Made by a program: the position numbers and the translations under genes. From NCBI GenBank assembly GCA_902763805.1, contig CACWTN010000005.1:113778-177777 (forward strand): a stretch of 64,000 bases of DNA. The letters run 5' to 3'. This document shows positions 25,854-28,878 of the stretch, piece after piece. Position 1 is the first letter of the stretch. Every line of letters begins with the position of its first letter. Below the pieces are notes generated by a model, which had not been told where the DNA came from, searched no databases, and worked only from the letters and a program-made list of their open reading frames with translations. Origin of the DNA: an uncultured bacterium. GTDB taxonomy: Bacteria > Cyanobacteriota > Vampirovibrionia > Gastranaerophilales > Gastranaerophilaceae.

Positions 25854-25929
25854 GGGCGTTTAGCTCAGTTGGTAGAGCGTCTCCCTTACAAGGAGAGGGT
25901 CAGAAGTTCGAGTCTTCTAACGCCCACCA
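25854..25929 (+). tRNA. tRNA-Val (UAC anticodon)
   Basis: A complete cloverleaf with encoded CCA. The acceptor GGGCGTT pairs with AACGCCC, the D stem is GCTC/GAGC, the anticodon stem is TCTCC/GGAGA with loop CTTACAA (anticodon TAC), and the T arm is AGAAG/CTTCT with loop TTCGAGT. It is followed directly by a terminator hairpin. Partial copies of its 3' end occur at 26103, 27541 and 28769, marking it as the likely attachment site of the islets that follow. Confidence 0.97.
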
Positions 25930-25930
25930 T

Positions 25931-25967
25931 AAAAAAGGAAGTGACTATTGTTACTTCCTTTTTTATT
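25931..25967 (+). terminator. Terminator of tRNA-Val
   Basis: AAAAAAGGAAGT (25931-25942) pairs with ACTTCCTTTTTT (25953-25964), then more T. A related hairpin with a different stem (GGACAAT/ATTGTCC) follows the 3' tRNA copy at 26123-26156. Confidence 0.82.
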
Positions 25968-25969
25968 TG

Positions 25970-26102
25970 GAAGTTTTGATAGCGAGAACTTCGGTTGAAG
26001 TTCGAGCGACCTGTGAGCAGAGTGCGGAGTGCTTTTGCTTTGTAGTGCGATTAGCACAAAAAGCAAAACACGAAGACACGTTTAATGCGAACAGGTCAAG
26101 AC
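25970..26102. other. Structured GC-richer non-coding tract between tRNA-Val and its 3' copy
   Basis: No gene is credible here. The tract contains nested inverted repeats: GAACTTC/GAAGTTC (25986-26003), GACCTGT (26008-26014) with ACAGGTC (26091-26097), and inside these GTGCTTTTGCTTTGT (from 26029) with a near-complement at 26056-26071. A long stem-loop RNA or cruciform is plausible. Its composition differs from its AT-rich surroundings and resembles the tract inserted before tRNA-Arg. Confidence 0.6.
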
Positions 26103-26156
26103 AGTCTTCTAACGCCCACCATAAAAAGGACAATGACTTTTGTTATTGTCCTTTTT
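26103..26156 (+). repeat. Displaced copy of the tRNA-Val 3' end with its own hairpin
   Basis: Bases 26103-26121 repeat the last 19 nt of tRNA-Val exactly (AGTCTTCTAACGCCCACCA). A terminator-like hairpin follows at 26123-26156. It looks like an attachment-site repeat left by integration at the tRNA. Confidence 0.78.
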
Positions 26157-26174
26157 ATTTTTGAGTTATTGTTC

Positions 26175-26230
26175 TGTATCAGGGATTTTGACATAAAGTG
26201 TCGCGAGTTTGACATATTTAGTCGGAAGTT
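26175..26230. repeat. Islet repeat, copy 1
   Basis: The first of three related segments of about 55 bp (others at 27607 and 28824). Shared features are GATTTTGACATAAAG, then TCG-GAGTTTGACAT, then TTTAGTCGGAAGTT. Two TTTGACAT words lie about 20 bp apart in the same orientation. This copy overlaps the last codons of the preA-like gene on the minus strand. Confidence 0.72.
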
Positions 26231-27420
26231 GGTTCAAATATTATCTTCATTGTTATTGCTCCCTGAGGGCATACATGGGAACAAAGCGAACATCCTTCGC
26301 ATGCGTTTTTATTTAGTTCTATACATTTTTCTTTTTTTATCAGTGCATTATATTCGGATTCAGAACATATTTTTACACACTTACCGCATTTACCGCACTT
26401 TTCGTCATTTATATCAGGATATAAATGGTAGTTTCTATTAAGTTTTCCGTGAGAAGTAATTTTAGGTATTGCAATGTTCTTTAATTCAGATATACTATTC
26501 ATTCTTTTTTCATTGAGATAATTCAGCAATCCTGTTTTAAGACCATTAATTACTCCATAGCCGTTCAACATAACCTCAGTACATATCTGAACAACATCAG
26601 CACCGAGTGTTATATATTGTGCTGCATCTTGCCAATTTGAGATTCCACCCATACCCAAAATAGGCAAATCAGAGCATTGTCTTATTTGTGCAACGCATTT
26701 AAATCCTATCGGTTTAACTATTTCGCCGGAACAGCCTCCATATGTTGAATAACCATCAATACAAAGATTCGGTTCTAATGTATCAAGATTAACTCCCATA
26801 AATCCCTGAACTGTATTTATTGCAGCAAATCCGTCACAACCCGCTTTTTCAACGGCTTTTGCAATCCAAGTAATATCAGTTACATTTGGTGTAAGTTTTA
26901 CAAAAACAGGTTTATTAGCAATAGATTTTACCCATGATGTTATTAAAATGGAAATTTCAGCACTTGTTCCTATTGCCATTCCTATATTTCTTTCGGGCAT
27001 TCCATGCGGACAAGAAAAGTTCAATTCATAGGCATCAATAGGAGTGTCATTCAAAATATGTATAAGATTTTGCCACTCATCACGCTTAACAGGTGCCATA
27101 ATACTTGCAATAATAACTTTTTCAGGATATTTTTTCTTTAAATAATGAATACCGTCACACCAATATTTAACTGATTTATGGCTTAGCAATTCTATATTTT
27201 GAAACCCTATAATTTTGCCTTTGGATTTCAAAGTTTCGTAGCGGGGACTCACTTCAAACATTTCTAAATCATCCGGAGTTATTGTTTTGATTACTGCTCC
27301 GCCCCACCCCATTTGAAAAGCTTTATCAATGCTTTCAATTGATGCTGTTGGCGGTGCCGATGCCAGCAAAAAAGGATTTTCAAATTCTATTCCTAATACT
27401 GATGTTTTTAATGTTGACAT
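26218..27420 (-). CDS. PreA-like dihydropyrimidine dehydrogenase subunit
   Basis: A 400-residue protein. Residues 1-310 form an FMN-binding dihydroorotate/dihydropyrimidine dehydrogenase barrel (LNFSCPHGMPERNIG, FVKLTPNVTDI, GMGGISNWQDAAQYITLGAD). The C-terminus has two 4Fe-4S motifs (CGKCGKCVKIC and CEGCSLCSHVCP). PreA normally works with the NADH-binding partner PreT in reductive pyrimidine degradation; no preT is present in the window. The gene sits alone on an islet between tRNA-Val-derived repeats, and its last codons (PTSD then stop) lie within the islet repeat. Horizontal acquisition is likely. Confidence 0.88.
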   Translation of the reverse strand: MSTLKTSVLGIEFENPFLLASAPPTASIESIDKAFQMGWGGAVIKTITPDDLEMFEVSPRYETLKSKGKIIGFQNIELLSHKSVKYWCDGIHYLKKKYPEKVIIASIMAPVKRDEWQNLIHILNDTPIDAYELNFSCPHGMPERNIGMAIGTSAEISILITSWVKSIANKPVFVKLTPNVTDITWIAKAVEKAGCDGFAAINTVQGFMGVNLDTLEPNLCIDGYSTYGGCSGEIVKPIGFKCVAQIRQCSDLPILGMGGISNWQDAAQYITLGADVVQICTEVMLNGYGVINGLKTGLLNYLNEKRMNSISELKNIAIPKITSHGKLNRNYHLYPDINDEKCGKCGKCVKICSESEYNALIKKEKCIELNKNACEGCSLCSHVCPQGAITMKIIFEPTSD

Positions 27421-27510
27421 ATTCAGACCTCACAGAAAAGTTAATATTTTTTAATTTGTGTCAAAATGATACAAAATAAGCATACTTGACTTGTAATTAT
27501 TATAACACAG

Positions 27511-27564
27511 AGTTAAATTGTGTATGACAAAGAAATATCAGGTCAGGAGTTCAAGTATTCTAAC
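27511..27564 (+). repeat. tRNA-Val 3'-like islet junction, copy 2 (degenerate)
   Basis: This 54-bp segment matches 28739-28792 with four differences. Its second half (GGTCAGGAGTTCAAGTATTC) resembles the T arm of tRNA-Val, but the acceptor end and CCA are lost. Similarity to the second copy extends weakly upstream to about 27455. Confidence 0.72.
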
Positions 27565-27606: not shown

Positions 27607-27661
27607 TGTATCATGGATTTTGAGATAAAGTATCGAGAGTTTGACATTTTAGTCGGAAGTT
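27607..27661. repeat. Islet repeat, copy 2
   Basis: Closely related to copy 1: TGTATCATGGATTTTGAGAT, then AAAGTATCGAGAGTTTGACA, then TTTTAGTCGGAAGTT. It lies between the degenerate tRNA 3' copy and the Cys-rich protein gene. Confidence 0.72.
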
Positions 27662-27925: not shown

Positions 27926-28228
27926 CTAATATTGTTCAGGAAGTCCATTGGGTCTATAAATTTTGACAGATTCTCTACTGTCTTGATTTGGATATTTTCG
28001 ACCTTGTTCTCTACCGTATTCATTTGCTTCTTGGTCTTCTTTTGAATCTTCAAGACTTTCTGCAACAGTCATTCCCTTTAATAGTACATTCTTGAACAAA
28101 TCTGTAAATTCTCTTAAATCACTTATTGCTTTTGCAACTTCAGCCCCTAGTTCTCCCCGTTTTGAGCCATCGCAATTTGCTTTTGAATGAAAATACTTAT
28201 CCGCACCTATTGTATTTGCTTCTTTCAT
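27926..28228 (-). CDS. Serum amyloid A-like domain protein
   Basis: A 100-residue intact frame with close resemblance to vertebrate SAA (PF00277): MKEANTIGADKYFH against MREANYIGSDKYFH, a shared KRG--G and AISD-RE, DS--DQ-ANE-GR near the end, and a C-terminal YRPNGLPEQY against FRPAGLPEKY. In bacteria SAA-like domains occur, to my recollection, at the ends of polymorphic toxins and beside small immunity genes. The homology continues upstream of this ATG in the same frame (RNYNDM), so this internal ATG is probably not the original start. See the following entry. It lies on an islet between tRNA-derived repeats. Confidence 0.75.
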   Translation of the reverse strand: MKEANTIGADKYFHSKANCDGSKRGELGAEVAKAISDLREFTDLFKNVLLKGMTVAESLEDSKEDQEANEYGREQGRKYPNQDSRESVKIYRPNGLPEQY

Positions 28229-28380
28229 ATCATTATAATTTCTAATAAAATCAGATATTGTTCCAACTATTTGATTTAAGGCATCTATACAATTATCAAG
28301 TATAGTTTTTGTAAGGATATTTTGAATTTTATTGTTTATTAAATCAGAAATTTTTTATATTAATCATAATACCTCCTTAT
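28229..28380 (-). other. Frameshifted 5' extension of the SAA-like gene
   Basis: AGGAGG (28372-28377) precedes an ATG at 28365-28367 with 4-nt spacing, but that frame stops after 7 codons. The SAA frame is open from just downstream of a TAA beside an A6 run (28351-28356, minus strand). Adding one A would join MINIKK to ISDLINNKIQN and run into the SAA domain, giving about 147 residues. So the gene is either inactivated, recoded by slippage on A6, or mis-sequenced in a homopolymer. Confidence 0.65.
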
Positions 28381-28738
28381 TTTTATATTGATTGTGATAA
28401 TTAAATTTTCAGCAGTGCAAACTAACAATTTTAACTTATGCTAAAAAAGTTTTTACTATTTTGACCTATCCTACGCAGCCATATTAAGAGATATATGATA
28501 GCTTAATCTCAAAGCATTGCTTCAAGGTGAATATATTTTTCATTGTACATATTTTCAAAAATTACCAAATGATTGTTAAGAATTTTTTACATCTTAACCT
28601 GGAGTTCAATAGATATAGGTTTTAGAAGTATATTTTTATGGCTATAAATGTAATAAACATTGAATCATAAATGGTTTTATCTAATTGACACAAAACAATA
28701 CAATTTTGCCATAAATACTTGATATTACTTCAATACAG
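28381..28738. other. AT-rich intergenic region, no gene seen
   Basis: About 360 bp upstream of the SAA-like gene with no supportable coding frame. It presumably holds that gene's promoter, but I see no confident consensus. The right end (from about 28684) has weak similarity to 27455-27510, the left flank of the other tRNA-like junction. Confidence 0.5.
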
Positions 28739-28800
28739 AGATAAATTGTGTATGACAATTAAATATCAGGTCAGGAGTTCAAGTCTTCTAACGCCCACCA
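28739..28800 (+). repeat. tRNA-Val 3'-like islet junction, copy 3
   Basis: GGTCAGGAGTTCAAG followed by the exact last 19 nt of tRNA-Val including CCA (28782-28800). The segment 28739-28792 repeats 27511-27564 with four differences. There is no D or anticodon arm, so this is not a tRNA gene. It probably marks the distal border of the islets. Confidence 0.78.
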
Positions 28801-28823: not shown

Positions 28824-28878
28824 TGTGTTATAGATTTTGACATATGGTATCTGGAGTTTAACATATTATTTAGAAATT
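28824..28878. repeat. Islet repeat, copy 3 (most diverged)
   Basis: TGTGTTATAGATTTTGACAT, then ATGGTATCTGGAGTTTAACA and TATTATTTAGAAATTC follow the layout of copies 1 and 2 with more changes. Confidence 0.6.

Follow-up and report, generated by a model that had tools for sequence, protein, structure and literature searches.

The minus strand of the window, by which we mean the whole 64,000-nucleotide stretch of a Gastranaerophilaceae genome analysed here, very probably carries the remnant of a toxin gene, deleted internally and out of frame, next to a likely immunity gene, both of them cargo of a small cassette bounded by two repeats, D1 and D2 (Table 1). This reading follows from an intact parent of the gene in G018, a genome of the same genus, and from a membrane protein partner that fits; toxicity, immunity and cassette movement are themselves inferred from sequence and context. 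The first-pass annotation had seen here a serum amyloid A (SAA) homologue with a slippery start, an exotic reading that gives way to a concrete history, namely a toxin gene lost by deletion with its intact parent in G018. The less ordinary part of the locus is not the SAA gene; it is the tRNA islet on which it sits, and the cassette family found there merits a separate study.

Table 1. Features of the islet behind tRNA-Val, in window positions, with the evidence for each.
Feature	Position	Strand	Evidence
tRNA-Val (TAC) in front of the islet	25854..25929	+	ARAGORN
Another copy of 25911-25975, comprising the tRNA-Val 3' end with its terminator-like tail	26103..26167		repeat family D3, 82%
D1 end, first cassette	26175..26229	+	nhmmer E 1e-18
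PreA-type dihydropyrimidine dehydrogenase subunit, 400 aa, cargo of first cassette	26218..27420	-	NCBIfam NF006183, 435.5 bits, cut-off 335
D2 end, first cassette, ending in a tRNA T-arm-like stretch	27490..27562	+	nhmmer E 1.2e-19
D1 end, second (SAA) cassette	27607..27660	+	nhmmer E 3.6e-16
Likely immunity gene, 76 aa	27682..27912	-	92% identity to G018, cysteine alignment, model
SAA tip, remnant open frame, 140 codons and stop	27926..28348	-	PF00277 1.3e-27, SAA fold
Stump left of the original start, seven codons from ATG to a stop	28344..28367	-	sequence; first 18 nt match G018 with one difference
Site of the internal deletion (net 587 nt less than in G018, out of frame)	28347..28350	-	comparison with G018
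A6 run, also in the uninterrupted G018 gene	28351..28356	-	sequence
AGGAGG ribosome-binding site of the original start	28372..28377	-	sequence
Non-coding upstream region, alignable to G018	28378..28717	-	blastn 81.7% over 442 columns including it
D2 end, second cassette, T-arm-like stretch and tRNA-Val 3' end	28718..28790	+	nhmmer E 1.3e-21
Third, degenerate D1	28825..28866	+	nhmmer E 8.8e-5
Photolyase-like gene, 420 aa	28920..30182	+	TIGR00591 E 5.7e-108, below its cut-off

The 140-residue open frame on the minus strand (27929-28348 without its stop) matches PF00277 with an E-value of 1.3e-27 and 96.5 bits against a cut-off of 30.8, and it is the sole match to this family in the window's genome. 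The 100-residue form that begins at ATG 28228 also matches significantly (E 1.4e-22), and homology does start upstream of this ATG, as suggested earlier. An AlphaFold2 model of the frame, built from 39 aligned sequences, has a mean pLDDT of 94.7 and consists of four long helices and a short fifth; when it was compared with the PDB, all seven matches at E <= 0.001 were vertebrate SAA, from mouse and human, and a sequence-profile search found eight distinct solved SAA sequences. With a profile score above the curated cut-off and the SAA helical fold, the frame is a member of the SAA family, as the first-pass annotation had recognised. Three of its residues, H54, E80 and D105, are invariant in all 39 aligned sequences and fit the His/Glu/Asp trio that section 7 of PMC12419801 infers for helices 2, 3 and 4. 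The frame also contains ANEYGR, an instance of the sNxxGR motif by which PMC12419801 defines prok-SAA toxins, and so, as far as trio and motif can tell, it would qualify as a prok-SAA (Lipocone) domain. The earlier remark that bacterial SAA domains form the tips of polymorphic toxins agrees with the account of them in PMC12419801.

SAA was found in 13 of the 97 relatives searched, the window's own genome counted, and G018 is the closest of them. The product of its uninterrupted gene is 342 residues long and runs from a phage-related front through a CxxC...HPNCKC segment to an SAA tip that is 94% identical to the window frame over the shared 140 residues; a highly similar intact homologue was found in G018 only. 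Ribosome site and first six codons are common to the two genes (one difference in 18 nt), as is an upstream region that aligns at the identity given in Table 1, after which the window gene picks up again at about nucleotide 608 of its G018 counterpart; measured from ATG to stop, it is short by 587 nt, a difference that puts it out of frame. It had been noted before that the only good ribosome site serves an ATG, at 28367, whose frame closes after seven codons, and this is so, the frame reading MINIKNF and then a stop; since ribosome site, start and upstream region are shared with G018, we take this short frame to be the stump of a real start. Judging from this comparison of orthologous loci, the apparent "frameshift" is an internal out-of-frame deletion in a longer gene.

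The slippery start does not survive the comparison. According to that proposal a free-standing SAA protein begins at ATG 28367 and is put in frame by slippage in the A6 run, one extra A fusing the two frames into a product of about 147 residues. A good ribosome site and an A6 run do precede the conserved frame, but an A6 stands at the same place in the uninterrupted G018 gene, which shows that the run is not the lesion, and what separates the frames in the window is the 587-nt deletion. Moreover, because the SAA codons start at 28348 and are offset by +1 from the ATG at 28367, an added base leads, by simple arithmetic on the sequence, into the third frame (TTT CTG ATT TAA), which is closed. 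We consider the slippage reading exceedingly unlikely, and a programmed-slippage gene was rejected as an identity for the locus, the A6 lying within a single frame in G018 and the deletion separating the frames in the window. Nor does the description of a free-standing copy hold, given the 342 residues of the G018 homologue and the 212-245 residues of 36 of the 63 listed SAA homologues, from a search that admitted no protein longer than 245 residues; seven of the 63 have about 100.

It is very unlikely that the real genome holds the full-length gene and that the deletion arose in assembly. In favour of such an artefact, the sequence is a draft of 20 contigs; against it, a loss of 587 nt cannot be put down to homopolymer error, the sequences on both sides are colinear with G018 and the cassette ends are in place. 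Internal deletions of the same gene also occur elsewhere: in the database protein P0063 the tip's last 35 residues follow directly on residues 1-88 of the same front, which by its sequence is a second, different deletion of this kind.

It is distinctly unlikely as well that translation from ATG 28228 yields a functional short product, such as a decoy or an intracellular form. The last 100 codons are well kept, with four synonymous and two non-synonymous codon differences from G018, so that either decay is recent or some use remains, and the seven listed homologues of about 100 residues would suit such a protein. However, the short form lacks the first helix, the PF00277 profile aligning to it from position 21 only; the homologues of its length may owe their starts to a gene caller's choice of this same internal ATG; and there is no ribosome site before ATG 28228, on which ground we rejected it as a start of its own. 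A complete toxin with a delivery part was rejected as a label for the window copy, which is deleted and out of frame, and would be what the G018 gene encodes.

Downstream of the SAA tip lies the gene for a 76-residue protein with one membrane helix and four cysteines, which is 92% identical in G018. In an alignment of 18 sequences C33, C39 and C59 do not vary, and 17 of the 18 have C73. The model of the protein has a helix followed by short helices and strands, and found no PDB match at E <= 0.001. For prok-SAA toxins PMC12419801 describes a four-cysteine immunity protein with a helix and strands. A membrane helix, strands, four conserved cysteines and a position adjoining the toxin are all found for the 76-residue protein, and it is likely to be the immunity protein of the SAA toxin, the comparison with PMC12419801 being one with its wording and not with its sequences. 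In 10 of the 13 genomes with SAA, a gene for a small cysteine-bearing membrane protein is found within the roughly 3-kb locus that also contains SAA, and in one of these (G013) the homologue of the candidate is on the strand opposite to SAA. The three genomes with no such gene nearby are G070, G079, where the contig ends just behind the match, and G039, where the SAA match is weak; six loci have the immunity candidate and no SAA in the fetched stretch, two of them with weak matches and one at a contig edge. Compared with G018, the 76-residue gene has 10 synonymous and 7 non-synonymous changes in 76 codons (dN/dS 0.12) and the SAA part 5 synonymous and 8 non-synonymous changes in 140 codons (dN/dS 0.33), a contrast that is suggestive only, because the counts are this small. 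NCBIfam gave no name to the SAA frame, to the 342-residue G018 protein or to the immunity candidate, and PADLOC returned no match for five proteins, with which the label of anti-phage defence was dropped.

The SAA proteins have several ties to phage. In its front part the 342-residue protein is similar to the gene that directly precedes SAA in G033 (39% over 87 residues) and in G026 (35% over 108 residues), and its CxxC...HPNCKC stretch matches the minor head family phrog_115 at 5.1e-5, on which basis this part may be called MuF-like. The Phage_Mu_F domain itself (PF04233) stays below its cut-off in the Pfam-scanned SAA homologues (best 22.5 bits versus 29.6) and is absent from the window copy; it scores above the cut-off in one protein of a G204 cassette that carries another tip. 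In G033 the SAA gene lies within a phage head module, in the order head-tail adaptor homologue (1.7e-31), SAA protein (phrog_115 at 5.9e-6), small membrane gene and major head homologue (2.4e-11). Six SAA loci turned up in viral contigs, among them L233, with the same gene set as G033, and L234 and L235, in each of which SAA is followed by a small cysteine-bearing membrane gene. The 342-residue protein had no tblastn match in a collection of annotated phages (50,697 records), and in the species-level genome collection there are 63 SAA loci, many of them assigned to other phyla in their record titles. A lipase-like protein paired with a small, convergently encoded membrane protein is found both on the flank of the G033 head genes (L019 14753-16277) and as cargo of a G008 cassette (L085 9191-11510), a likeness seen by eye; this is perhaps a second module common to phage and cassettes.

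A chimera in G024 (L024 8537-9982) has the front of the SAA toxin, then a decayed segment still similar to SAA (46% over 114 aligned columns) but not reported by Pfam, and then a peptidase- or endolysin-like tip (Peptidase_M15_3 7.7e-5, phrog_894 1.4e-9), which by sequence looks like tip exchange; its cassette also holds a four-cysteine gene and a second small gene. Two further proteins, in G334 (L109 6187-6954) and G204 (L110 6753-7520), carry SAA tips (PF00277 1.4e-18) on a different front (MANLKDFF...). Their genes are followed by another small cysteine-bearing membrane gene, and their cassettes also have a gene that by eye looks HTH-like.

Bacterial relatives of animal serum amyloid A are thus placed in small cassettes and near phage head genes, where they offer natural toxin-immunity pairs for testing the proposed origin of SAA in bacterial conflict. 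In the mechanism that we propose, the front of the intact protein, which resembles phage head-region proteins, would serve packaging or delivery; the SAA tip, as predicted from the Lipocone superfamily treated in PMC12419801, would attack envelope lipids of competing bacteria at their phosphate-linked head groups; and the membrane-anchored 76-residue protein would counteract it outside the cytoplasm. The window copy can no longer yield the toxin as a single protein; the likely immunity gene is intact and probably still protects against kin with a working toxin.

The SAA protein is a broken member of a published kind, the prok-SAA toxin with four-cysteine immunity protein described in PMC12419801 (Lipocone, eLife 2025). 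It shares with those toxin tips the SAA domain, the sNxxGR motif and the His/Glu/Asp positions, and its neighbour shares with their immunity protein the helix, the strands and the four conserved cysteines; in contrast to the toxins as they are described there, neither front nor reading frame survives in the window copy, which sits in a D1/D2 cassette. With the MuF polymorphic toxins of temperate phages, as presented in PMC5576092, there is a likeness in the variable tip behind a phage head-type front, and in the position of the G033 SAA gene among head genes. The difference is that MuF stays below the Pfam cut-off in the scanned SAA proteins and that the toxins here also occur in cassettes with no phage module. 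The PAAR-Rhs proteins of enterohaemorrhagic E. coli, as outlined in PMC7216683, likewise have SAA as the C-terminal part of a polymorphic toxin, whereas front part and organism differ.

That the gene lies on a tRNA islet had been proposed earlier, and tRNA-Val together with repeats that hold tRNA 3' fragments confirms it. D1 and D2 repeats bound the SAA remnant and the immunity candidate, and D2 ends in a mimic of a tRNA T-arm. With nhmmer profiles of the two repeats we found 32 complete D1-D2 units in the fetched loci, or 30 after the removal of two duplicates (among them L128, a repeat of G018); these 30 measure 495-3908 nt, and their cargo is unrelated among units. A Pfam scan of 16 proteins of the units and two window proteins, together with NCBIfam, placed above their cut-offs PreA (window), an acyltransferase, a nucleoside transporter, AAA_14 with DUF4143, a class 3 lipase, a member of the uracil-DNA glycosylase family, DUF2971, MuF with an M15 peptidase, and SAA. 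SAA or its remnant is cargo of at least 5 of the 30 units (window, G018, G024 in decayed form, G334 and G204).

The D1 pattern occurs in 18 of 65 genomes of the genus at up to two mismatches and in 90 of 383 genomes of the order at up to three, all of the latter in the window's family and none among the 22 genomes outside it; the control, the same pattern read backwards, gave no match among the genomes listed. Among 70 distinct D1 sites (identical-flank sites counted once, and L128 and L133, copies of G018 and G152, left out), 30 follow a tRNA on the same strand, at 34-272 nt from its 3' end, and the other three arrangements do not occur. The tRNA is Ala-TGC in 14 cases, Val in 5 and another in 11. 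A further 25 sites stand behind a D2, from which it follows that units stand in tandem; one coincides with a locus edge, and the remaining 14 fall in no such class, several having what look by eye like remnants of a tRNA 3' end. All these counts give context and not frequency, because the loci were fetched for holding D1 or SAA.

A search of the loci for recombinase motifs returned no tyrosine-recombinase candidate, although a motif search can miss one, and no integrase motif was seen in the cassette loci or in any of the 30 units. A gene for a serine-recombinase-like protein of 493 residues in G050 (L097 930-2517) ends about 55 nt before a D1. In viral contigs D2 had no exact match and D1 had one, in L107 (IMGVR_UViG_3300032167_000393), where it stands behind a stretch like a tRNA 3' end, on a piece that by eye also holds a reverse-transcriptase-like gene.

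An ordinary decayed prophage at a tRNA, with D1 and D2 as its attachment sites and no cassette system at all, would also leave tRNA 3' fragments and direct repeats, the usual remains of prophage integration, and the toxin does occur in phage head modules. We nevertheless regard it as unlikely: the repeats bound 30 small units of unrelated cargo, similar units turn up behind more than one kind of tRNA and in more than one genus, neither D1 nor D2 was found in the six SAA-bearing viral contigs, and the motif search gave no integrase. Our alternative, which we put forward tentatively and with slightly less than even confidence, is that the D1/D2 units form a distinct class of integrase-less, tRNA-anchored cassettes, known so far from a single bacterial family, that would be moved in trans by a phage or host recombinase and would serve as a common stock of metabolic genes and of toxin-immunity modules of phage type; toxins that have decayed beside a surviving immunity gene, as in the window, would be the leftovers of such exchange. 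If the cassette family holds up, it would be a compact exchange system with ends defined well enough for a recombinase hunt.

The closest published patterns found for the islet are additive tRNA islands and tycheposons, both found in PMC10872708, and the units are set apart from them by the descriptions given there. Like the additive flexible genomic islands of that source, the window islet has variable units behind one tRNA and repeats of the tRNA 3' end, and in this sense it is an additive island; in contrast to them, the units here span 0.5-3.9 kb and have defined D1/D2 ends common across genera. Tycheposons, as PMC10872708 describes them, are also cargo-carrying elements at tRNA genes, of 4-200 kb and with a tyrosine recombinase. 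Tycheposon identity was rejected, the 30 units being only 495-3908 nt long with no tyrosine recombinase by motif. Among publications on Gastranaerophilales or Melainabacteria mobile elements or on integrase-less tRNA cassettes, judged by title, we found no such cassettes.

The cassettes stack behind tRNA genes and appear, from their sequences, to pass from genome to genome as whole units, probably with the help of a recombinase encoded elsewhere. The PreA cassette of the window (26175-27562) is 98.6% identical over 1456 nt to that of G020 (L090 9464-10900), versus 81.9% for the prfB regions of the two genomes; in G020 the cassette that follows it differs from the window's. Between different genera, the acyltransferase cassette of G018 and G176 is 97.0% identical (prfB 77.8%), and a two-gene cassette of G008 and G132 is 96.8% identical over 3758 nt (prfB 76.8%), the match starting at D1 and stopping 23 nt past D2. 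The nucleoside-transporter cassettes of G013 and G005 are 88.1% identical (prfB 77.7%). For the SAA cassette itself, at 93.6% in coding and 81.7% in upstream sequence between window and G018 (prfB 84.3%), transfer is less clear than for the others, because its identity is not far above that of prfB. The pepA-adjacent site, which in the window holds tRNA-Val and the islet, has D1 in 5 of 30 fetched loci (G000, G005, G008, G009 and G048) and no D1 in the other 25, some of which end early at contig ends. In G005 this site has nucleoside-transporter-like and lipase-like units in place of the PreA and SAA units, and ARAGORN reports no tRNA there.

Behind the photolyase-like gene of the window no D2 was found, and the gene is possibly the cargo of a third, decayed cassette. 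A similar gene makes up the cargo of a complete cassette in L108 (4236-5507), and part of one precedes a D2 in L098. The record ONVC01000007.1 (L128, RUG672) is titled uncultured Acinetobacter and has the content of contig C50 of G018, so that its label is probably wrong. Finally, a second recurring stretch (ATTACAATTCAAATGTCC..AAATAAACCCCA and variants) precedes D1 in L024, L084, L094, L096 and L108, where a tRNA was not found, and is possibly another anchor site.
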